Assembly: GCF_000568255.1 (NCBI RefSeq)
Contig: NZ_KK037166.1
Location: forward strand, 5,571,041-5,619,547
Origin: Kutzneria sp. 744
GTDB lineage: Bacteria > Actinomycetota > Actinomycetes > Mycobacteriales > Pseudonocardiaceae
Direction of reading: 5' to 3'
DNA: 48,507 bases
Shown here piece after piece: positions 10,591 through 32,443 of this stretch. Under the pieces are notes generated by a model that was not told the origin of the DNA, made no database searches, and saw only the letters and a list, made by a program, of their open reading frames with translations. The position numbers and the translations under genes are program-made. Numbering within the stretch: position 1 is the stretch's first letter; every line of letters starts with the position of its first letter.

Positions 10591-10668
<78 letters not shown>

Positions 10669-10793: not shown

Positions 10794-10838
10794 CAAGAAG
10801 GGATGCTCCGCGCGGCCGCTGCGGAGCATCCCTTCTTG
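10794..10838. terminator. Perfect 18-bp stem terminator
   Basis: Arms CAAGAAGGGATGCTCCGC and GCGGAGCATCCCTTCTTG enclose a 9-nt loop. It lies 10 bp beyond the stop of the minus-strand membrane gene and would end its transcript. Confidence 0.8.
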
Positions 10839-11964: not shown

Positions 11965-13131
11965 TCACGCTCCGGCGACCGGAAAGATCTGGTCCATGGC
12001 GGTCGCACCGTCCTGGATCACCGGGCGGATCTGATGCCGGTACACCTCCTCCGTAACTGACGTTCCGCTGTGCCCAACCAGCCGCGAGATCTGCTCAATG
12101 GTCATGCCGCTGTCCGAGAGCAGGGACACGAAGCTGTGCCGCAACTCGCGCGGCGTCCACTCAGCCGCGTGCAGCCCGGCCGCCTTGAGTACCCGCCGAA
12201 ACTGCCGTCGGACGTTGGCCGCGTCCAGCTCGGTGCCGACCTCCGAGGCGAACACCAAGCCGTGTTCCTGCCACCGGTCGCCCGCCCGCTTCTTGTGCAC
12301 CTCCTGACGTGCCTGTTGGGCTTTTAGGGCGGTGATTGCCCTCTGTGGCAAGGCAAGCGTGCGGCGAGACTTTCGGGTCTTCGTGTCACCGCCGGCCCGT
12401 ACGGACCGCCACACGGCGATGTGCGGCGGAACCGGCGGGTTGGCGTCGGGGTTCCCTTTCAGGTCAACGTGTGTCCACGTCAACGGTCGCACCTCCTCAG
12501 TGCGCGGCCCGCCGACCAGGGACACCACGATGTACGCCCCAATCGTCGAATCGTCAGCTTCCGCACGACGTAGAAGGGCGTCCGCCTGATCGAACGTCAG
12601 CGACTTCGACGGCCTGCCTGTCTGCCCCTCCGGGCACTCGCAGAGCAGCACGACGTTGCGCTTCACCTTGTCGCGCGCCTGCGCTCGGTTGACCGCTCGA
12701 CGGAGAACAGACCGGATGTCTCGCAGCGTCCGCGTACTGAGCGTCTTCGCCTTCTCCGCCAACCACTCGTCAACGTCGTCAGCCGACAGCTTGTGCAGTT
12801 TGAGCGCGCCCAGCGACGGGATGACGTGCGCTTCCGCGAGGATTCGGCACGTCGTGACGGTCTGCCCGTCGCGCCCGTTCAGCCCGTACTGCAACCAGTT
12901 GTTGACGGCATCGGCGACCGTGTAATTGTGCGGCTCGATCGCAAGCCCGTCCTTGACGTCACGCATGATGGCGTCAAGCTTGTTCTTGGCCTCAGTTTTC
13001 GTCCGCCCGCTAGCGCGCTTGGTGATTCTCTTACCGCGTCCGTCAAATCCGACGGTTACCGTTGCAATCCAACGCTTGCGATTCTCATCCCAATGCAGAC
13101 CACCATCACCACGACTACGACGCTTGGTCAA
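11965..13131 (-). CDS. int: Tyrosine recombinase integrase
   Basis: 388 aa from TTG 13131 (LTKRRSRGDGG), chosen because GGGGGTGG lies just upstream; TTG 13152 is also in frame. The order is an arm-type N-terminal domain (GGLHWDENRKRWIATV), a SAM-like core-binding domain (~70-160), and a catalytic domain with R210 (GGPRTEE), R331 (TPRELRHS), H354 (VGHSG) and nucleophile Y364 (EEVYRH). The first position of the HxxR box is Arg, as in many actinomycete AICE integrases. It overlaps xis by 17 bp and is read away from it. It catalyses integration and excision at the tRNA-Pro att sites. Confidence 0.95.
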   Translation of the reverse strand: MTKRRSRGDGGLHWDENRKRWIATVTVGFDGRGKRITKRASGRTKTEAKNKLDAIMRDVKDGLAIEPHNYTVADAVNNWLQYGLNGRDGQTVTTCRILAEAHVIPSLGALKLHKLSADDVDEWLAEKAKTLSTRTLRDIRSVLRRAVNRAQARDKVKRNVVLLCECPEGQTGRPSKSLTFDQADALLRRAEADDSTIGAYIVVSLVGGPRTEEVRPLTWTHVDLKGNPDANPPVPPHIAVWRSVRAGGDTKTRKSRRTLALPQRAITALKAQQARQEVHKKRAGDRWQEHGLVFASEVGTELDAANVRRQFRRVLKAAGLHAAEWTPRELRHSFVSLLSDSGMTIEQISRLVGHSGTSVTEEVYRHQIRPVIQDGATAMDQIFPVAGA

Positions 13132-13348
13132 ATTCCACCCCCGATTCCTCAATCAGCAGTTGAACGTAGGCGTTGATAGCTACCGCCGGAACGAGCCGAG
13201 ACCGGCCCTGGACAACGGTCTTGAGTCGACCGGCGCGGATCTGCTCGTAAATGACGGATCGACTCATCGAAAGCAGCAGCATTGCCTCGGGGATCTTGTA
13301 CAGCGCCTTGAGCGGCACCACCGTTGGCACCCGGTCGGGCTGGGTCAC
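13115..13348 (-). CDS. xis: Excisionase / helix-turn-helix directionality factor
   Basis: 77 aa from GTG 13348 (MTQPDRVPTVVPLKALYKIP). The pattern YKIPEAMLLLSMSRSVIYEQIRAGRLKTVVQGRSRLVP is the winged HTH of Xis/BldC-like proteins. Its 3' end overlaps the integrase start, giving the usual xis-int operon. Its start overlaps the stop of the DUF3631 gene by 4 nt, linking excision to replication expression. Confidence 0.9.
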   Translation of the reverse strand: MTQPDRVPTVVPLKALYKIPEAMLLLSMSRSVIYEQIRAGRLKTVVQGRSRLVPAVAINAYVQLLIEESGVEFDQAS

Positions 13349-14616
13349 GCTACCTCCTCGATGCCCCGGTTGAGAGGGGTAGCCGTACCAGCCGTACCAG
13401 CCGTTGCAACGCTGGTCAGAGCGGTACGGCTTGTGTTCGTGGTACGGCTTGACCCGTACCAGGGTTCCGAGCCGTACCGCTCTGACCTGGTCTGCGACGG
13501 CTGGTACGGCTGGTACGGCTCACCCCCGGCGGCGGGGTCGTCGGGCGCCAGGTACCGGCTCCACGCGTCGGCGAAGTCGGTGCTCTGGTACCCCTTGGCC
13601 TGCCCACCTTCCGGAAACCGAAGCGTGGCCGGCCGGATGTCGAACTCGGCCAGCAGCTTCCCGAGCTTGACCGCGCTCAAGCCGTTCGGGCCGATTTCCG
13701 ACCACGGCGCTTCCGGGTCGGCATTGAGCCGTTCCAGCAGCGTCGCAGTACGAATCAACGTGCCGTCGGCGAACGCGGCGCGGCAGTCCTGCAACAGGCG
13801 CGTCCGGAGGGTGTTCTCGCTGTTCTCCTCCGCCTCCGCCGTCAATGCCAGCACGGCGGCGCGGGCACGGTCGGGCCATCGCCCGCCCGCGTGATCGGCT
13901 ACAGCCATCAATGGCTCCCAGGTGTCGGCCGCTCGGTCTTCCACGGGCATGACCGGTTCGGCTTTCTCCAACACGGCAAGGTCAGCTCGCAACCACGAGT
14001 ACAACTGCGACGCCAACTTGTTCAGGCCGGGCCGGTCGCGGCGGTGCCGATACGGCGACACACTTTCCCCCGGCGCACGGCGGCGCATCCGGATGACCAC
14101 CGCCCGGTCCTCAATGGTGTCCGGCATCGCGCCGATACCCGCCAACGCGGCCATAGCGAACGTGGGAATGGTTTCTACGCGGCTATTCGCGGCGTCGTAT
14201 CGAATGGCAGGCCGGTTGCGCTGGTGGCCAGCGTTGAGCAGGCCCCGGAGGTCTTCGTTCGCGGAGGCGTTCGGCCCGAAGATGGTGTCCGCCTCATCCA
14301 CCAGCATCGTCGGTGGGTCCTCGGTGATCGACCGGTAGACCGCCGACGGGCTGGCGTTCACGGTGAGAAGCGGGCTGTAGCAAGTCGCCTCGACCACGTC
14401 CAGTAGCCGCGACTTGCCGCAGCGCTTCTCCGGGGCGCGGATGACCAGCCGCGGGGCGTGCGCCCACGCCGGTTGCGCGTGGCTCGCGGCGATCCACAAC
14501 ACCACGGCATCGGTGGCGTGCTCGCTGGGCAGGATGACGTACTTGGTCATGGCCGCGTGGACGGTGTCCAGCAGTGCGGCCCCGTCGATCGGGACGGACG
14601 TCGTAGGCGTGGCCAT
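13345..14616 (-). CDS. DUF3631 P-loop ATPase, AICE replication protein
   Basis: 423 aa from ATG 14616, preceded by GGGAG; ATG 14640 overlaps the prim-pol stop (ATGA) and could also be used. Walker A APEKRCGKSRLL (~61-72, first Gly replaced by Ala) and Walker B TMLVDEAD (~103-110) lie ahead of a DUF3631 domain ending near residue 360. Such proteins pair with prim-pols on actinobacterial plasmids and AICEs, probably as helicase or origin-opening ATPases. The last ~50 residues (PYQPYQPSQTRSERYGS…) are low complexity because the DNA there is a large nested palindrome (13381-13520), a candidate replication origin. Confidence 0.88.
   Translation of the reverse strand: MATPTTSVPIDGAALLDTVHAAMTKYVILPSEHATDAVVLWIAASHAQPAWAHAPRLVIRAPEKRCGKSRLLDVVEATCYSPLLTVNASPSAVYRSITEDPPTMLVDEADTIFGPNASANEDLRGLLNAGHQRNRPAIRYDAANSRVETIPTFAMAALAGIGAMPDTIEDRAVVIRMRRRAPGESVSPYRHRRDRPGLNKLASQLYSWLRADLAVLEKAEPVMPVEDRAADTWEPLMAVADHAGGRWPDRARAAVLALTAEAEENSENTLRTRLLQDCRAAFADGTLIRTATLLERLNADPEAPWSEIGPNGLSAVKLGKLLAEFDIRPATLRFPEGGQAKGYQSTDFADAWSRYLAPDDPAAGGEPYQPYQPSQTRSERYGSEPWYGSSRTTNTSRTALTSVATAGTAGTATPLNRGIEEVA
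13381..13520. repeat. ~140-bp nested palindrome with GGTACGGCT iterons
   Basis: The outer arms 13381-13404 and 13497-13520 are perfect 24-bp inverted repeats, each built from AGCCGTACC units. The inner arms 13414-13431 and 13470-13487 (GGTCAGAGCGGTACGGCT and its complement) are perfect over 18 bp. At the centre a third hairpin (TGGTACGG-CTTGAC-CCGTACCA, 13440-13461) forms. It lies within the 3' end of the DUF3631 gene, next to xis. Its structure and location suit a replication origin or Rep-binding site. Confidence 0.85.
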
Positions 14617-14636
14617 GGTGTGATCTCCCGTCTGGT

Positions 14637-15653
14637 TCATGCCGCGCCCCGCTGGCCGAACAGCCCGCCCTGATCGGTGGCGGGCTGCTGGTCGGTCGGC
14701 ACGACGCGGGGCTTGAACGCCCCGGCGCGTAGGCCGTTGCGGATGTGGCGGCGGAGGTCGGACTCGGTGCAGTCGCAGTCGGCGGTGAGCATGTGGTGTG
14801 CGGCTGCGTAGAGGGCGGCTTCGGCTTCAACCGGGGGGAGCAGGTTCGCGCCGACGAACTGGCCGAGGTTGCCGGCGGCGGAGAACAGGGTCTTGGCGTG
14901 CTGCCCTGAGAGCGTCTTGGCGACCCGATCGCACTCGCCCCGCACGGCGGCCGCGACGTAGGCGGGAAGCCGCGTAGAGCCGCGCACAGGCGGCGCTGTG
15001 GTGGCCACCACGGGCTTGGGAGCAAGCCGGGTAGCCAACCACCCCGGCAAGTCGAGCGGGGCGCAGTTTTCGGCGAGCTCGTAGCGGCCGTCATCGGTGA
15101 TCGATCCGGGGGCGACGACGTAGCCGCCCCAGGCTCGGGTGTCGACCTTCCAGCCGAGTCCGTTGCCGGTGTCGCCTTCGGTGTTGCGCAGCTGCACCGC
15201 GTGCGGGGCGCGGAAATACAGGTGCGTGCCGCCGCGCGGGGAGGTGACGGCGCGGGTCTCCCACGGCACTGGCTGCCCGGCCTGCTCGCACACGAGGGTG
15301 AACACGTCGTGCCCGTCGACGATCCCCCTCCGGTTCCAGCCGTCCTTGGGCACGTCGGCCGGTGACTTGCGGGTGTCCAGGTCGACCACCACGAGGTTGC
15401 TCGGTCCGGTCGCGATACCGACGTTGCAGCCGGCGTAGCGGGCGCTGGTCCAGTACCAGCGGATCTGGTCGGGGTCGACCATGGCGCGCTGCTCCCACGT
15501 CTGGTGTCCGGCGGTACAGATACCGGTGGCCGGGCAGTGCTGCTGGCTGTGGAAGGCCGGGGGCTTCTTGGAGTTCACCCGGATGGGGAACACGTGGAAG
15601 CCGTGGGCGGCGGCGGCCAGCGCGGCCGCGAGCATGTCTCGGGTGCTGGTCAC
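14637..15653 (-). CDS. Bifunctional DNA primase/polymerase (prim-pol)
   Basis: 338 aa from GTG 15653, with AAAGGG upstream. The N-terminal prim-pol domain (AALAAAAHGFHVFPIRVNSKKPP) has the catalytic acidic pair in NLVVVDLDT (D91, D93), the basic/His motif SPRGGTHLYFRA near 155-166, and GGYVVAPGS. A helical C-terminal part (~235-320) resembles the primase C-terminal region. This is the replication initiator type of many AICEs, making primers and extending them. It is coupled by ATGA overlap to the DUF3631 ATPase. A hairpin and a GGGGACGTGAC element precede it. Confidence 0.92.
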   Translation of the reverse strand: MTSTRDMLAAALAAAAHGFHVFPIRVNSKKPPAFHSQQHCPATGICTAGHQTWEQRAMVDPDQIRWYWTSARYAGCNVGIATGPSNLVVVDLDTRKSPADVPKDGWNRRGIVDGHDVFTLVCEQAGQPVPWETRAVTSPRGGTHLYFRAPHAVQLRNTEGDTGNGLGWKVDTRAWGGYVVAPGSITDDGRYELAENCAPLDLPGWLATRLAPKPVVATTAPPVRGSTRLPAYVAAAVRGECDRVAKTLSGQHAKTLFSAAGNLGQFVGANLLPPVEAEAALYAAAHHMLTADCDCTESDLRRHIRNGLRAGAFKPRVVPTDQQPATDQGGLFGQRGAA

Positions 15654-17313: not shown

Positions 17314-17340
17314 GGGGACGGGTCACGTCCCCTTGCTGTG
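17314..17340 (-). promoter_or_regulatory. CACAGCAAGGGGACGTGACC leader element
   Basis: A minus-strand copy of the repeated element, ~48 nt before the Nudix start. Here GGGGACG-TGACC-CGTCCCC also forms a 7-bp stem, so the element could fold in the RNA. Confidence 0.6.
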
Positions 17341-17365
17341 GTGTGGGAATCTCGCGAGCGGCCCG

Positions 17366-18406
17366 CTAGTCGACGCGCTGGCCGTTCACGTAGAGCACGC
17401 CGCCCTGGTAGATCACGGTGTGGCCGCGACCAGTGCTGGGGGCGGTGTGGGTCGGCGTCAGCGGCTGGCCGGTCGCGGCGTCGGTGACCACGGTTCCGCG
17501 CACGGACACCGAGCGGCCCGGGTGCCGGTAGACGCTGCCGCCCACGACGGTGTAGCCGTTGCCCTGCACGACACCGCCGACGTTGCGGCCGATGATGACG
17601 TCGCCGGACCCGCCGCTGACCTGCCGCTCCTTCTCGACCGCTTTCTTCCGGGCCTTCTTCTCGGCCTTCCTGGCGGCCTTGGCGGCGCGTTCGGCGTCGT
17701 CGCCCGGGCTGGACTGTCCACCCGTGCTGGCCGAGCCGCCGAGGAAGATGCCCCCGGAGTTGCTGCCCATCACGACGCCGGTGTTGTTACTGATCTTGCC
17801 GAACCGGACGTTGTCGTCGTTCCTGCCAGATCCCATGTGGACGCCTCTCCCGGTGTTGTCGTCGGTCACGTCCCCCGCCTGAGCAGCGAGGCGTTCCTGC
17901 CGGGCCTCGTGACGCAGCCGGCGGGCTTCCTTCCGTGCGGCACGGGCAACCTGCCGGGCCTCGCGGTACTCGGCGTCCCGGTCACCGTCGACCTCGCCCC
18001 AGCTACCGCGGTTGATCTGCACGCCGTCGCCGGTGTGGACAGGTCCGAACGATGAGCCGATGACCACGCCAACGCCCGTGACGACGTCGCCTTGGATGCC
18101 GACGGTGCCGCCGTGGTTGGTGTTGACCACGGCGACGCGCTCGGCGGTGTCGTGCTCCACAGTGCGCGGTGGTGTCACGTCCCCTTGCTGTGCAGCGGTT
18201 TCCCGCGCCTGCGTGTCCTGTTCCTTGAGCTTGTTCAACGCCGTCGTGGCCGCCTGGATCCGAGCCTCACCCGCGGCTACGGCGGCGGTGTCGCCGGCCG
18301 CGCGTGCGGTGTTGACGGCGCGGCGGGCGCGGTGGATCTGTTGACGCAGCTTGGCTTTCGCTTTGCCACTGCTGCCGGAGCAGCGGCGGCCTCCTGTTCG
18401 GCACAT
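17366..18406 (-). CDS. Coiled-coil / glycine-valine repeat protein, possibly several modules
   Basis: 346 aa from ATG 18406 (MCRTGGRRCSGSS), well placed behind CAGGAGACACGCC. Basic Ala-rich helices (KAKAKLRQQIHRARRAVNTARAAG; ARQVARAARKEARRLRHEARQ; RAAKAARKAEKKARKKAVEKE) alternate with G/V/I/N-rich stretches (GGTVGIQGDVVTGVGVVIGS; NNTGVVMGSNSGGIFLGG; SGDVIIGRNVGGVVQGNGY). The latter look like short beta-solenoid turns. Two copies of the GGGGACGTGAC element lie inside the ORF, each read in frame as GDVT. A second good start (GGGAGAGG…ATG 17837) follows one, so a shorter protein may also be made. Function unknown. Confidence 0.7.
   Translation of the reverse strand: MCRTGGRRCSGSSGKAKAKLRQQIHRARRAVNTARAAGDTAAVAAGEARIQAATTALNKLKEQDTQARETAAQQGDVTPPRTVEHDTAERVAVVNTNHGGTVGIQGDVVTGVGVVIGSSFGPVHTGDGVQINRGSWGEVDGDRDAEYREARQVARAARKEARRLRHEARQERLAAQAGDVTDDNTGRGVHMGSGRNDDNVRFGKISNNTGVVMGSNSGGIFLGGSASTGGQSSPGDDAERAAKAARKAEKKARKKAVEKERQVSGGSGDVIIGRNVGGVVQGNGYTVVGGSVYRHPGRSVSVRGTVVTDAATGQPLTPTHTAPSTGRGHTVIYQGGVLYVNGQRVD
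17865..17876 (-). promoter_or_regulatory. Intragenic GGGGACGTGACC element
   Basis: Copy inside the repeat protein, 28 nt before internal ATG 17837 with its GGGAGAGG ribosome site. Confidence 0.5.
18173..18202 (-). repeat. 30-nt repeat containing GGGGACGTGACA, intragenic copy
   Basis: Matches 18428-18457 at 28 of 30 positions (minus strand GAAACC…TGCACAGCAAGGGG then ACGTGACA). Both copies are read in the same frame (QQGDVT). Confidence 0.85.
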
Positions 18407-18427
18407 GGCGTGTCTCCTGTGTGGAGT

Positions 18428-18457
18428 TGTCACGTCCCCTTGCTGTGCATGGGTTTC
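18428..18457 (-). repeat. 30-nt repeat containing GGGGACGTGACA, leader copy
   Basis: Lies 22 nt before ATG 18406. Nearly identical to 18173-18202, which suggests that part of the gene arose by duplication of a leader-gene unit. Confidence 0.85.
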
Positions 18458-18812: not shown

Positions 18813-18947
18813 CCGCTAGGAACTAGGGCACTGATCAGAGGGTGTTGGGGTCGCTAGCGGGGGCGCTAGGTCTAGCGGGGATGCCTGCTAGACCTAGCGC
18901 CCGCCATCGGCCGTCACCGGGCGGTCGTCGACGCCCGGTCTAGTCAC
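18813..18947. promoter_or_regulatory. CTAG-rich cluster beside traB, candidate clt
   Basis: About eight CTAG tetranucleotides within ~135 bp, a motif that is normally scarce in high-GC actinobacterial DNA. Most are embedded in CGCTAG-type units. At 18863-18900 a perfect 14-bp stem forms (GCGCTAGGTCTAGC / GCTAGACCTAGCGC, 10-nt loop). It sits immediately downstream of the traB-like gene. In Streptomyces plasmids the cis-acting transfer locus recognised by TraB is a repeat-bearing non-coding site near traB. It could also simply be a terminator. Confidence 0.55.
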
Positions 18948-21168
18948 TGTCCGTGATGGCGTCGGTGATGTCGTCGCGGGTGATGCCGCGGCGGTTGGCG
19001 CCCTTGCCGGTCGTGGGGTCGGTGCCCCACACCTGTGCGGTGCGCACGCCGTAGGGCTTGAGCGCGGCGGCCAGCTGCACGGCCATGGCCTTGGCCTCCT
19101 GCTCCGCCCACGGCCCGTAGACCGAGGGCCGCAGGTCAGCGAGCCGGGTGACCACGGTCTCCGACCACAGCTTGTCCTCATCGGCACCGAACACGGACGC
19201 GATGTCGGCCAGCAGCGTGGAGCCGTCGACGTCGTCGACCTCGGCGTCCAGACCAGCAGCGAAGCCGGTCAGCCGGCCCTGCGCGGTGCGCACGGCGCGG
19301 GCCCGGGCGGCGATGGCGTCGGCGGCCGGGCCGTCGATGTAGACGGTCTTGGTCAGCTTGGCGTCGTCGCCCTCACCGACCAGGTACCCGATGCCGCGGT
19401 CGTTGCGGGACAACGTGGTCGCACGGACGCCGTTCTTGTGCGCGGAGGTGCCCAACACCATGTCGTTCTCGGTGTGCCCGTTGACCTTGAGGCAGAACCG
19501 CATGATGGCGTTGGCGGAGATCCCGGTCGGGATGGACTTGGCGTCCGGCCGCTGGGTGGCCAGCACGAGCACCATGCCCAGTGCGGGGCCGCGCTTGACG
19601 ATGTCGGTGCAGATTTCCTCGAACTCCCCGCCGTGCTTGGGGTGCTCGAACCACACCTGGCACTCGTCGACCCCGATGACGATCGGGTGCAGGCCCAACG
19701 ACTTGTTGCTGGCCAGCTCTGGGGTGACCTTGTTCTCCGGGCACAGGTCCTTCGGCAACTCCCGGATCACCTTCGCGCGACGCCGCAACTCATCCCGTAG
19801 CGCACGCAGGTCGGCCAGCGCGTAGGTGATGTCCTCATCGTCGTCCCCGGCCCGGTAGCGGTGCGCAACCTGCGCCAACGGCGACAAGTCACCAGTTCCC
19901 TTCAGGTCGTAGGCGTGGACCTCCGCCCGCGGGTCCAGCGCGGCCATGAGCAGGATCTCCCGCAGGGCGAACGTCTTGCCCATGCGGGGAACCGCGCCGA
20001 TGATCATGGACACGAACATCAGGGTGATGTCGACCCAGCGGCCGCGCTGATCGGTGCCGAACGGCACCGACCGGAACAGATCCACCGTGCCCGTCTTCGC
20101 GAGTGGCCACGCAGGTTGACGGGCGGAGGCCATGTCCTGATCCCCCACCCACAACACCAACCGGCCCGGGTGGACCTCAGTGTTGCCGTCCGGCCACACG
20201 CATCCCAGCGGCCGGCCCAACGCGGCGGCGAGGTTCGCGCGGCGGTCGATGACGTCGGTCGCGACAGCGCCGGGCGGGAGGTCGATGTCCGCGCGCCAGC
20301 CGGGCCCGTCGCGGGTGATCGGCGCGGTGAACGCGATCGCCCCCTTGGGGTCCTTGCTCATGGCCTGGTTGATCCGGCCGATGCCCAGCACGGACAAGGC
20401 GTGCACGATGACCTCGGAGGTCAGCGGACGCACCGACGAGCCGACCACAGCGCGGCTGATGATCGGCTTATCCGCCGGGGCACCCAGGAACCCCAGCAGC
20501 ACCACGGCGGTGAAGATGCACACGCCGATCACCCACGTCGGGAGCAGGAACCAGCCGGTGACCGCGGACGCCATGCCCAACGCGGCCGCACCCAGCATGA
20601 TGATCGTGCGCAGTCGTACCCGGGCGTCACGCTGCCGCGACAGCTTCAGGTACTGGTCAGCGTCCTCGGCGCGGGCCATGGCGGAGCGGACCGGGCGGCC
20701 TTCGGCGTCGGTGACCCAGTGGTTGATGCCGCGCAGCATCCGGCCGGCGCCGATCGGGGACCGCAACGCCAGCTTGGACACGTACCAGGGTGCGCGCACG
20801 GCGTGAAACGCCGTGGTGTGTCCCAGGTGGGTGAGCATCGCTCGCATTGCGGATTCGGTGTCGGCCCATGACTTGGTCCACTCGGGCAGGATCGGACGCC
20901 GTTCCCGCTGGGAGATCCGGTCCAGGTAGGACGGGCGGCCGATGGTCGGGGTGTCGACCAGCGCGGCCGGGATGTCGTCGACGATTTCGGCGTCGACGAT
21001 CTCCCCGGCCTGCTCAACCTCGACCTCAGCGGGCACGGCCACGGTGGCGTGAGGGTCGGTCGTGCCCGGGTCTGCACCACCGGTGACCAGCGGACGCAGC
21101 GGCCGGACGTTGTCGGGGATCTGGGGTTCGTCCGGGGTCGGTGCCCCGGTCACAGTGGTGGTGGACAT
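18940..21168 (-). CDS. traB: TraB/FtsK-SpoIIIE-type DNA translocase
   Basis: 742 aa from ATG 21168 (MSTTTVTGAPTPDEP), which overlaps the previous stop (TGATG); the frame is open 123 bp further upstream. Order: disordered acidic N-terminus; two TM helices (~185-230, TIIMLGAAALGMASAVTGWFL and WVIGVCIFTAVVLLGFLG); FtsK-type motor with Walker A GAVPRMGKT (K398) and Walker B VIGVDECQVW (D501, E502), then LVLATQRPDAKSIP. The C-terminal ~100 residues (…GITRDDITDAITD) could be a winged-helix DNA-recognition domain. A hexameric pump of this type moves double-stranded AICE DNA between mycelial cells. Confidence 0.92.
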   Translation of the reverse strand: MSTTTVTGAPTPDEPQIPDNVRPLRPLVTGGADPGTTDPHATVAVPAEVEVEQAGEIVDAEIVDDIPAALVDTPTIGRPSYLDRISQRERRPILPEWTKSWADTESAMRAMLTHLGHTTAFHAVRAPWYVSKLALRSPIGAGRMLRGINHWVTDAEGRPVRSAMARAEDADQYLKLSRQRDARVRLRTIIMLGAAALGMASAVTGWFLLPTWVIGVCIFTAVVLLGFLGAPADKPIISRAVVGSSVRPLTSEVIVHALSVLGIGRINQAMSKDPKGAIAFTAPITRDGPGWRADIDLPPGAVATDVIDRRANLAAALGRPLGCVWPDGNTEVHPGRLVLWVGDQDMASARQPAWPLAKTGTVDLFRSVPFGTDQRGRWVDITLMFVSMIIGAVPRMGKTFALREILLMAALDPRAEVHAYDLKGTGDLSPLAQVAHRYRAGDDDEDITYALADLRALRDELRRRAKVIRELPKDLCPENKVTPELASNKSLGLHPIVIGVDECQVWFEHPKHGGEFEEICTDIVKRGPALGMVLVLATQRPDAKSIPTGISANAIMRFCLKVNGHTENDMVLGTSAHKNGVRATTLSRNDRGIGYLVGEGDDAKLTKTVYIDGPAADAIAARARAVRTAQGRLTGFAAGLDAEVDDVDGSTLLADIASVFGADEDKLWSETVVTRLADLRPSVYGPWAEQEAKAMAVQLAAALKPYGVRTAQVWGTDPTTGKGANRRGITRDDITDAITDSD

Positions 21169-22523
21169 CAGGCAACCTCCTCCTGCTCGATCGAGTGCGG
21201 TCGGTTCTGGTCGTCGGCCAGCAGCGCGGCCACGCGGTAGGCACGGGCCTTGTCGCCGCTCCGGTTCATGACGTGGGTGTAGATCCGCCACCCGGACGGC
21301 GCCGAGGACAGCTGGCCGTCGGCGATCAGGTCGCGGACCTCGCGGTAGAGCTCCCGATCCGGGTCGGAGGCATCGGCTGCAACCGGGGTGGGGTCGGACT
21401 GTTCGTGCAGGTTGACCGGCCCGGAGCCGGGCAGCGCCACAGGCCGGAACCCGGTCACCGCGGCGGTGCGGTCGATCATGCGGGCGACGTCCTCAGCCAG
21501 GCTGTAGGCCGGGGCCTCCGCCACCCTCCGCCCGAACCGGGTCAAGGCGACCGGCCCGTCCGGGTACCGCAGTTCCACCCGCCCATCGGCGTGCAACAGC
21601 GCGGTGGCGGAGCGGACCGCGGCCCGCTCGAACCGGGCCACCCGACGCCGGGCCGCACGGTCCAACCGCCGCGCCGCCCGGCCGGTCCACCACGCCCGGG
21701 CGGCGGTGATCACGTCGGTGCGCCAGTGCGAGATCTGGTGCACCGCGATGCCGGCCACCGACACCAGCGCCATCACGACGCCGTGCCAGCTGGCGTTCGG
21801 GTCGGCCGCGCCGTGGGTGTAGTTCAGCGCGGCCGACACCGCAGCAACCAACCACACCGCGGCGGTAGTCGCCCCGACCGGCAGCCCAGCGCGGCGCCGG
21901 ATCTCCACGCGCGCCAAGCAAGGCCCACGCGGAGGTCAGTTCAATCCCGGGCATAGTAAAAGAGGTACTTATACTTGAAAGTCGGCACCCGGTGACGAGC
22001 TTATAATGATGTGACACGGTTACGGCTACGGCCGACGTTTTCGCCTGTCAGAATGGAGTCACGCTTGGGCCCGTTAGCTACCACATTACGCCTAGTTACC
22101 CGTTCGTTTGTATACTTATATCCGCTCATGCCACGCGGAGGTCTCCGTGAACAAGGCCAGCAGCCAGCCAAGCCCGGCACCGAACACGGCGTCACCAGAC
22201 GCGGACTGGGCCTGCCAGGCCAACACACCCGGGGCGACGATGACCGGCAGCCACAGCGCCAGCTGCCAGCGCGCGGAGACCCACGCGACCAGCTCGGCCC
22301 GGCGGCGGCGCCGCTCGGCGCGGTCGGTCTCCCGCTCGGTGCGCTTGCGGGCGGAACGCTCGGCGGCCAGCCGTTCGGCGGCCTCGGCCTGCGCGGTCTG
22401 CACCGCGACCAGGGCCAACGCAGCCTCGGCATTGGTCCTCGCGGCTTCAGCCTTGTACTGCTCGGCCATACCGGCGGCGACCGCGCGTTGCGAGCGGGGG
22501 TCGTAGAGACGGGGCGTGGTCAT
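21168..22523 (-). pseudogene. Spd-like / DUF2637-type membrane protein, split
   Basis: The 5' part (22523 down to ~22131; ribosome site AAGGAGGTGA) encodes a charged coiled coil (YKAEAARTNAEAALALVAVQ…RKRTERETDRAERRRRR), then TM helices LALWLPVIVAPGVLAW and LGWLLALFTETSAW. The 3' part (below ~21925) continues in another frame as VEIRRRAGLPVG…AAVWLVAAVSAALNYTHG and GVVMALVSVAGIAVHQI plus a soluble tail to 21168. Together they match the architecture of AICE Spd-like proteins. A 206-bp A/T-rich insertion with a 13-bp flanking repeat separates them, and one extra base is needed to explain the frame. Both halves could still be translated separately: 22116-22523, 135 aa, and 21168-21917, up to 249 aa. 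Confidence 0.7.
21925..22143. other. 206-bp A/T-rich insertion with 13-bp direct repeats
   Basis: CCACGCGGAGGTC occurs at 21925-21937 and 22131-22143. The 193 bp between are visibly lower in GC than the flanks, contain no ORF of note and show no terminal inverted repeats. The repeat looks like a target duplication or a recombination scar. Confidence 0.75.
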
Positions 22524-24749: not shown

Positions 24750-25189
24750 GCTGCAACTTCCGAAGGTGTTGCGGGGTCGGTGTTTTCACTGTCTTCCACG
24801 CAGGGGAAGCACATGCCCAGGCTCGGCGCGATGATGTAGCCGCGGTCCCGGCCGCATTCCGGGCAGCAGCGGCGCGCGAGGTTGGCCTTGGCGAGGGCAC
24901 GCCACTTGGCCGGCGTCATCGCCAGCATCGGCTTGGCCGTGCTGATCAGGTAGAGGTTGGCGAACCACTGCGCGCCGCCGGTGCGGCTGTAGCCGTAAAG
25001 CACGGCCACCGGGTCGTGACCGCCCGGACGCAGTCCCAGCGTCTTGAGCTGCCGCACGGTCGCCAACAGCGGTTTGGGCGCCCACCCGACCGGCAGCAGC
25101 GGCAAGCCGCCCTCGGTGCCGTGGGTGAACTCCGGATACGGCGACCACGCCACCGCCATCTGCACGACGGGCCGGACCTTGTTGGCCAT
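24746..25189 (-). CDS. AICE protein with C-terminal zinc ribbon
   Basis: 147 aa from ATG 25189, overlapping the upstream stop (TAATG). The N-terminal part holds LPVGWAPKPLLATVRQLKTLGLRPGGHDPVAVL and RTGGAQWFANLYLISTAKPML. Residues ~115-140 (RRCCPECGRDRGYIIAPSLGMCFPC) form a two-CxxC zinc ribbon. Proteins with this plan (GWxPxPL…zinc ribbon) recur in actinomycete AICE operons. Function unknown. Confidence 0.75.
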   Translation of the reverse strand: MANKVRPVVQMAVAWSPYPEFTHGTEGGLPLLPVGWAPKPLLATVRQLKTLGLRPGGHDPVAVLYGYSRTGGAQWFANLYLISTAKPMLAMTPAKWRALAKANLARRCCPECGRDRGYIIAPSLGMCFPCVEDSENTDPATPSEVAA

Positions 25190-25653
25190 TACAACGGCAC
25201 CACGGAGGCGACCAGCGCGCCGGCCAGCACGAACAGGCCCAGCACGAGCAGGTGCACCGCGCGCCGGATGCGGATGAACTTCCGGCAAGCGATCCGGGCG
25301 AGGCTCTGCACGTCGTACACGACGTCGACCGGATGCGCCGTCCGGTAGTACTTGATCAGCTCGTGCGGCTCGGTGGTCAGCGACGCCAGCCAGCTACCGG
25401 GCGCCGCGCCGTTGAGGTTCGGGCGGATGGCCGAGAGCAGCAGAAGCACGCTCAGTCCGATCGGCACGGCCGAGGTCCACAACGCGACGGTGGCGACCGG
25501 CGGCAGGTTCCTCCCGGTCAAGGCGACGACGCCGGCCAGCGCCGCGCCGACCAGAGACAGCAGCGTAGTGGCCTTGCTGTCCGCGCGGCGCAGTTCGTCA
25601 CGGACGTGATCGCGGGCGGCGAGCAAGCCGGCGGGAACCGGAATCTCGGCCAT
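25189..25653 (-). CDS. Pycsar effector family (PycTM-type) membrane protein
   Basis: 154 aa from ATG 25653, overlapping the previous stop (TGATG). An N-terminal amphipathic part ends in RRADSKATTLLSLVGAALAG, with the D/K-A-T/S signature before the first TM. TM helices lie at ~29-46 and ~52-75; a cytosolic loop (SLTTEPHELIKYYRTAHPVDVVYDVQSLARIACRKFIRIRRA) precedes a last TM at ~132-152. This pattern matches PycTM effectors, which disrupt the membrane when activated by cyclic UMP/CMP. No pyrimidine cyclase gene is visible in the window, so a Pycsar function is not shown. It may serve the conjugative element itself. Confidence 0.65.
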   Translation of the reverse strand: MAEIPVPAGLLAARDHVRDELRRADSKATTLLSLVGAALAGVVALTGRNLPPVATVALWTSAVPIGLSVLLLLSAIRPNLNGAAPGSWLASLTTEPHELIKYYRTAHPVDVVYDVQSLARIACRKFIRIRRAVHLLVLGLFVLAGALVASVVPL

Positions 25654-32391: not shown

Positions 32392-32434
<43 letters not shown>

Positions 32435-32443
32435 GGGAGATCT

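Follow-up and report, generated by a model that had tools for sequence, protein, structure and literature searches.

The palindrome at the end of the RepAM gene of Kutzneria sp. 744 is quite probably the replication origin of an actinobacterial ICE (AICE), lying within the 3' end of the element's initiator gene; this reading is drawn from sequence comparison. We also lean, with some reserve, towards a wider interpretation that has to be taken as a whole: the palindrome would belong to a class of iteron origins that is widespread and has gone undescribed, in which private iterons are set in a helically phased palindrome that may occupy any reading frame, a DUF3631 AAA+ initiator of the helicase type (not a rolling-circle type) follows a one-residue recognition code, and one type of domain serves RepAM and the transfer protein Tra with separate specificities. 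If true, the origin would be located for a large actinobacterial family of mobile elements with a replication mode only predicted (rolling circle), and a base-by-residue rule would be available that can be tested by gel shift.

The window, i.e., the whole 48.5-kb stretch of DNA that was analysed, comes from a genome of 11.65 Mb. The sequence at 10631-10667, the 3' end of a tRNA-Pro gene, recurs at 32400-32436 with 35 of 37 bases (next best match 21), and the region from about 10,630 to 32,435 (~21.8 kb) is therefore considered an integrated AICE. It contains what such elements are known by: an integrase, an FtsK/SpoIIIE-like Tra, RepAM beside Prim-Pol, and tRNA attachment repeats (Table 1). 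The first-pass annotation had placed the palindrome at the 3' end of a DUF3631 gene next to Prim-Pol, xis-like and integrase genes, and Pfam searches (HTH_17 for the xis-like protein) confirm all of these neighbours.

Table 1. Features of the element and of the palindrome in the window
Feature	Position	Strand	Basis
tRNA-Pro (CGG); its 3' end serves as one of the two attachment sites	10591..10667	+	ARAGORN
Tyrosine integrase	11965..13152	-	PF00589, E 6e-18
HTH_17 protein, xis-like	13115..13348	-	PF12728, E 3e-8
RepAM (DUF3631)	13345..14640	-	PF12307, E 1e-67
Whole palindrome, candidate replication origin	13376..13525	.	dyad search, recoding draws, conservation in relatives
Outer iteron array, other arm: CCGTACC x2	13383-13389 and 13392-13398 (array 13383..13398)	+	sequence, repeat family
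Mirror motif CTGGTCA	13412..13418	+	right motif of strict-grammar elements
Inner iterons GGTACGG	13423-13429, 13441-13447 (inner block 13423..13478)	.	sequence
Inner iterons CCGTACC	13454-13460, 13472-13478 (inner block 13423..13478)	.	sequence
Motif CAGGTCA (gene strand)	13483..13489	-	conserved in strict-grammar elements
Outer iteron array, gene-strand left arm: CCGTACC x2	13512-13518 and 13503-13509 (array 13503..13518)	-	9-bp period
Prim-Pol (bifunctional primase/polymerase), overlaps RepAM start	14637..15653	-	PF09250, E 5e-40
FtsK/SpoIIIE-like transfer protein (Tra)	18940..21291	-	PHROG 1358, E 5e-27
Second attachment-site copy	32400..32434	+	repeat of tRNA-Pro 3' end

DUF3631 is the sole Pfam match of RepAM. 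Among its relatives the columns G75-K76 and D115-E116 are invariant and look like the Walker A and Walker B motifs of an AAA+-like core, and the C-terminal region, which carries Thr at residue 339 in the window protein, is presumed to be a DNA-binding domain. Searches for PDB relatives of RepAM yielded none that were significant; the top match of its C-terminal profile, the C-terminus of a DNA primase (7ola, presumably a SaPI5 protein), is likewise not significant (E 0.44). Tra stays under the cut-off for Pfam FtsK (20 vs 24 bits), and its C-terminal residues 686-778 are of the DUF3631 type (PF12307, E 1e-6), such that the replication protein and the transfer protein appear to have a DNA-binding domain in common.

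Several further features of the element are recorded here in their own right. Near tra, at 17322-18447, there are three identical copies and one 79% copy of GTCACGTCCCCTTGCTGTG, which might be a site bound by Tra (clt) or else a start-site module; the core of these repeats, GGGGACGTGAC, is also found in hairpins of two other loci (L080 and L040). An inverted repeat of 19 nt (95%, 4-nt loop) is situated at 18861-18902, directly downstream of the stop of tra on the minus strand, and an 18-bp perfect inverted repeat with a 9-nt loop lies at 10794-10838, near the tRNA-Pro end. At 25189-25653 on the minus strand, the element encodes a PycTM (Pycsar effector-like) membrane protein (E 1e-10), possibly an anti-phage cargo.

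Concerning the palindrome itself, an inverted-repeat search returned two arms of 72 nt (13376-13447 and 13454-13525) with 82% complementarity and a loop of 6 nt. The palindrome is thus larger than the 13381-13520 reported in the first-pass annotation, coordinates that proved exact when the sequence was re-read, as did the perfect nested arms of 24 bp (13381-13404 / 13497-13520) and 18 bp (13414-13431 / 13470-13487); a third nested arm of 8 bp (13440-13447 / 13454-13461) is perfect as well, and all three possess a single common centre. With a score of 39.5 it is the top dyad of the window, the best non-overlapping 300-bp window reaching 18. When the tail peptide was recoded synonymously, this score was attained in none of 1000 permuted and none of 1000 gene-pool draws (maxima 25.5 and 16.5, respectively). 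Folded as single-stranded DNA, the palindrome reaches -76.9 kcal/mol (z -15.8), and none of 200 shuffles was as good. Each outer array continues into a degenerate third iteron (at about 13494-13500 in the left arm and at 13401-13407 in the other), the 6-mers of the inner iterons follow one another at 18-14-18, and CTGGTCA and CAGGTCA span 78 bp from outer end to outer end.

The comparison was based on a first set of 201 loci from among the matches listed, 200 of them with a DUF3631 match, which was reduced to 158 distinct DUF3631 genes with enough downstream sequence (clean proteins from 150). At the gene end, 116 of the 158 exhibit a dyad score of at least 16, compared with 63 of 2292 equal-size control windows of the same loci, and 73 exhibit a score of at least 25, compared with 2 of the control windows. 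Conservation of the dyad across other DUF3631 genes, the comparison called for when the palindrome was first noticed, thus bears out the proposal, whatever the reading frame. An initial iteron parser recognized only 67 of the 158 genes and missed many because the third iteron copy is degenerate; a strict grammar was then scored, which asks for a motif on either side and, at a fixed offset from it, two iterons in each arm; it is found in 96 of the 158 genes and in 1 of 331 control windows.

The layout starts with iterons repeated every 9 bp. C[A/T]GGTCA comes next, followed by two inner iterons in inverted orientation and, in some elements, by a middle block, after which the order returns as a mirror image. 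In 83 of the 96 strict-grammar elements the left motif reads CAGGTCA or CAGCTCA, and in 94 of the 96 the right motif reads CTGGTCA or CAGGTCA. The iteron words vary across elements (CCGTCCC, CCGTACC, CCGCTAC, CGGTAAC, CGGTTAC, CCGCGAC, and others) and are uniform within one. A hybrid is present in L151, with one outer array of CCGTCCC and the remainder mainly CCGTACC, and L156 (G481:C6:481753-496982) possesses tandem palindromes, with CCGTACC in the RepAM tail and CGGTAAC immediately downstream, as if two origins with different specificity had been stacked. Two further loci may be mentioned separately: in L002 (G000:C1:10886676-10887329), a second DUF3631 gene of that genome has a dyad with a different private word, CGGTAAC, and L068 (G239:C1:276949-277125) contains a tail-like palindrome in an 18-kb locus without a DUF3631 match, possibly the remnant of an origin.

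A second set consisted of genes from named genomes (59) and from viral contigs (55); close strains may remain in it, because only exact duplicates of the first set were dropped. A dyad score of at least 16 was found in 44 of the 59 genome genes and in a minority of the viral-contig relatives (18 of 55), compared with 32 of 1421 controls. Two circular Streptomyces plasmids, NZ_CP108973 of S. longwoodensis (14,273 bp) and NZ_CP108827 (13,544 bp), each carry Tra/FtsK, Prim-Pol, DUF3631, HTH, and integrase genes, and in both the top dyad spans the RepAM stop. In NZ_CP108827 this dyad stands out (36.5, the runner-up 17), whereas in NZ_CP108973 its score is marginal (18, the runner-up 17), although the iterons there are plain. 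The two plasmids also give a weak hint of a replication start near the dyad, confounded by gene direction: the detrended GC-skew minimum is 319 bp away from the centre of the dyad in one and 761 bp away in the other.

The first-pass annotation had also suggested that the low-complexity tail of the protein is dictated by the DNA and not by the needs of the protein, and this is sustained by two results. Reading frames 2/0/1 of the motif occur in 52/31/12 of 95 strict-grammar elements (one of the 96 was omitted for a broken frame), and the RepAM stop follows the dyad in 51 of them, falls within it in 26, and precedes it in 18. As the dyad occurs in all three frames and the position of the stop is variable, selection acts on the DNA. 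Furthermore, 49 of the 51 dyads lying wholly in the open reading frame outscore all 30 of their synonymous resamplings. In the course of these comparisons, no homologue was encountered that keeps the tail peptide but breaks the dyad through synonymous codons, the case named in the first-pass annotation as a refutation.

The distance from motif to motif is quantised. In the first set it clusters near 78, 112, 123, 135, 146, 157, 168, 179, and 213 bp. Outside these clusters fall one span of 99 bp, from the second palindrome of L156, one of 222 bp, and two of 71 bp without a canonical motif. Among 46 representatives with less than 80% identity, a period of 11.2 bp fits best (R 0.86; none of 2000 jittered nulls as good), and periods of 10.5, 9, and 3 bp fit far worse; not all of these spacings are independent, because spans are inherited. 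Restriction to spans with canonical motifs on both sides gave a period of 11.2-11.3 bp with R 0.88 in the first set (87 of 96) and R 0.75 in the second (27 of 44), and none of 1000 nulls was as good in either set. Before this filter, all 44 parsed spans of the second set gave R 0.51; of the 17 removed, 12 were spans of 70-71 bp in which the parser had taken GCGGGGA, with CAGGTCA or CAGCTCA 9 bp upstream, and the other 5 were without both motifs. About 11 bp is the helical repeat in vivo in work on repressor loops. A spacing quantised at ~11.2 bp argues for proteins held in a fixed register on duplex DNA rather than for a hairpin alone.

The variable base of the iterons is tracked by a single residue of RepAM. 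Base calls were made for genes at least 60% identical to the window protein; in the first set this concerned 87 of 89 genes (two were without a clean aligned protein), 80 of which were callable, and 7 had too few iterons. In this window-like clade Asn339 goes with CCGTCCC and Thr339 with CCGTACC in all 80 callable genes (52 + 28). Among the 31 genes of the second set, one had too few iterons, and 28 of the remaining 30 are concordant (14 + 14), one being discordant (L249) and one mixed (L246). When RepAM pairs of 70-80% identity are compared, those with different iterons disagree at residue 339 in 93% of cases (511 pairs) and those sharing an iteron in 5% (679 pairs), a contrast made at equal overall divergence of the proteins. 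The tandem locus L156 conforms to the pattern, as the palindrome in its RepAM tail (CCGTACC) fits its Thr339.

On a tree built from RepAM residues up to 290, i.e., with the C-terminus left out, there are 13 base changes and 13 residue changes, and all 76 rows with Asn or Thr are concordant (two further rows have His and Arg). Counted on well-supported branches, there are just 4 independent co-changes, all 4 of which agree (p 0.125), and joint recombination could inflate the concordance at 339, because the codon and the origin lie so close together, although the neighbouring columns 344-346 attain no more than 0.87-0.89. The next best RepAM column reaches 0.89. In the other proteins, the best column attains 0.83 in Prim-Pol, 0.78 in Tra, and 0.77 in the integrase, in sets where RepAM 339 is concordant in 78/78, 76/76, and 59/59 rows, respectively; Prim-Pol and the integrase were consequently rejected as iteron readers, their columns being weaker than RepAM 339. 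An earlier pair-contrast test with few pairs had yielded 0.94 for RepAM 339, 0.84 for Tra (permuted maximum 0.75), and 0.77 for Prim-Pol (permuted maximum 0.76); it was then replaced by direct concordance with more elements. HTH_17, with 7 usable sequences in the pair-contrast set, is still a conceivable reader as far as that test goes.

These co-variations argue strongly that the C-terminal domain of RepAM reads the iterons and that residue 339 picks the base at the variable position, A in the case of Thr and C in the case of Asn, and RepAM, not Prim-Pol, is the likely iteron reader. As a separate observation, the DUF3631 gene of Pseudomonas phage Phipami28 (L091 5001-6263) possesses CGCGAC tail repeats and a weak dyad (score 13), and Asp is found at residue 339 of its protein, as it is in two actinobacterial elements with CCGCGAC iterons.

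After excision of the AICE, RepAM, which resembles an AAA+ helicase, would load onto both arms of the palindrome and form two opposed assemblies kept on one helical face; these might open the DNA lying between them, and Prim-Pol would then prime synthesis on the opened strands. The suggestion of an AICE origin made in the first-pass annotation gains support from comparison, since DUF3631 is the RepAM of pMEA300 and residue 339 tracks the iteron base. What that annotation did not anticipate are the iterons private to each element, the CAGGTCA motif, the phasing at ~11 bp, and RepAM in place of Prim-Pol as the probable reader.

An unlikely alternative is that the palindrome, though bound by RepAM, is no origin and serves in control, as an operator or attenuator silencing either rep or the xis-int genes downstream. 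The palindrome does lie directly upstream of xis-int, its folded strand is very stable, and binding of RepAM to the iterons would look identical in both cases; in our judgement, however, its size, double array, and helical phasing go beyond those of ordinary operators. Attenuation by RNA would leave the iterons, CAGGTCA, and the ~11-bp spacing unexplained, and Rfam families gave no match between 11000 and 22000 of the window.

It is decidedly unlikely that the iterons constitute a clt-like transfer site, bound by the FtsK-like Tra for the transfer of double-stranded DNA. Tra is encoded by the element, TraB is known to have short repeats particular to each element, and Tra and RepAM could bind similar DNA because the C-terminus of Tra matches DUF3631. 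The Tra position aligned with residue 339, however, is Gln in about two thirds of the 60 rows listed, with either iteron base, no Tra column exceeds the concordance given above, and the repeat word does not follow the residues of Tra; L184 and L176 share an identical Tra segment, whereas their iterons and their RepAM residues differ. This reading is accordingly unsupported by residue-iteron concordance. In 100 dyad loci of at least 13 kb, Tra was found by tblastn in 78 and undetectable in 22, and Prim-Pol was found in 64. The dyad therefore does not depend on this Prim-Pol or this Tra. Dyad loci without detectable Tra or Prim-Pol speak for RepAM as the partner of the palindrome, and those without detectable Prim-Pol limit the priming part of the origin model.

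A double-strand origin of the rolling-circle type, nicked by RepAM while the dyad extrudes as a cruciform, appears very improbable. Ghinet 2011, citing te Poele 2008, gives this mode as the prediction for RepAM, together with nick sites like those of pC194, and a long dyad can extrude; against it, the invariant residues of RepAM are Walker-type in look, Prim-Pol adjoins, and phased iterons suit arrays of protein on duplex DNA. Finally, short repeats within a disordered-looking protein tail might be a functionless by-product of low-complexity expansion or of mutational palindrome formation, a notion with hardly any probability left, since the grammar, the motif, the independence of frame, the coupling of residue and base, and the periodic spacing in the comparative data largely refute it.

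The proposed origin is not universal among DUF3631 genes. Scores below 16 are found in 42 of the 158, and 25 of the 158 have neither dyad nor iterons by the cut-offs used. Five genes with open frames and 64-75% identity (L174, L170, L171, L080, and L190) end without such a dyad, and when these loci were searched for a palindrome moved elsewhere, nothing beyond ordinary hairpins turned up and the predicted iteron formed no cluster. The dyad is also absent at the gene end of L234, and half a dyad only is present in L167, L126, L233, and L243.

Among the closest known systems is the replicon of pMEA300, likewise an AICE with a DUF3631 initiator, RepAM, for which autonomous replication was shown (Ghinet 2011, PMC3218068). 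RepAM is treated there as a predicted rolling-circle initiator, and iterons, palindromes, and inverted repeats are unmentioned in the main text of that article. It is also the one article naming DUF3631 in the openly accessible literature that was searched, and no description of a palindromic RepAM origin came up there.

Cch2 and CCPol-MP of SCCmec resemble the scheme proposed here in that an initiator helicase uses its C-terminal domain to bind repeats located shortly after the gene that encodes it, and a partner enzyme primes at these repeats; they differ in the proteins, in having three short direct repeats, and in belonging to a staphylococcal cassette and not to an AICE (PMC7581432). In the rep-ori module of SaPI/PICI elements, the origin lies directly 3' of the initiator helicase gene, with two sets of iterons, and a primase is part of the module; the C-terminal domain of the helicase reads the iterons (PMC6092414, PMC7581432), as we infer for RepAM. 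Despite this similarity, the candidate origin described here in most cases lies within the final part of the coding sequence or straddles its end, consists of a single long palindrome with a constant CAGGTCA, and exhibits no AT-rich centre (mean GC 0.681 between the motifs vs a locus mean of 0.689), and the helicase is a DUF3631 protein with Prim-Pol separate.

The Sulfolobus plasmid pRN1 (ORF904) combines Prim-Pol, helicase, and a winged-helix initiator, and a stem-loop of ~100 nt just downstream of the gene is needed for replication, its structure being kept while its sequence varies (PMC4234260). There the host is archaeal and Prim-Pol and helicase are fused, and, as far as PMC4234260 describes it, iterons and specific binding were not found; here, by contrast, the genes are separate, the long stem-loop also overlaps the gene, the iterons are plain, and one residue tracks them. 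The candidate origin thus seems akin to those of SaPI/PICI and pRN1, whereas its layout grammar, its phasing, and its recognition code look new.
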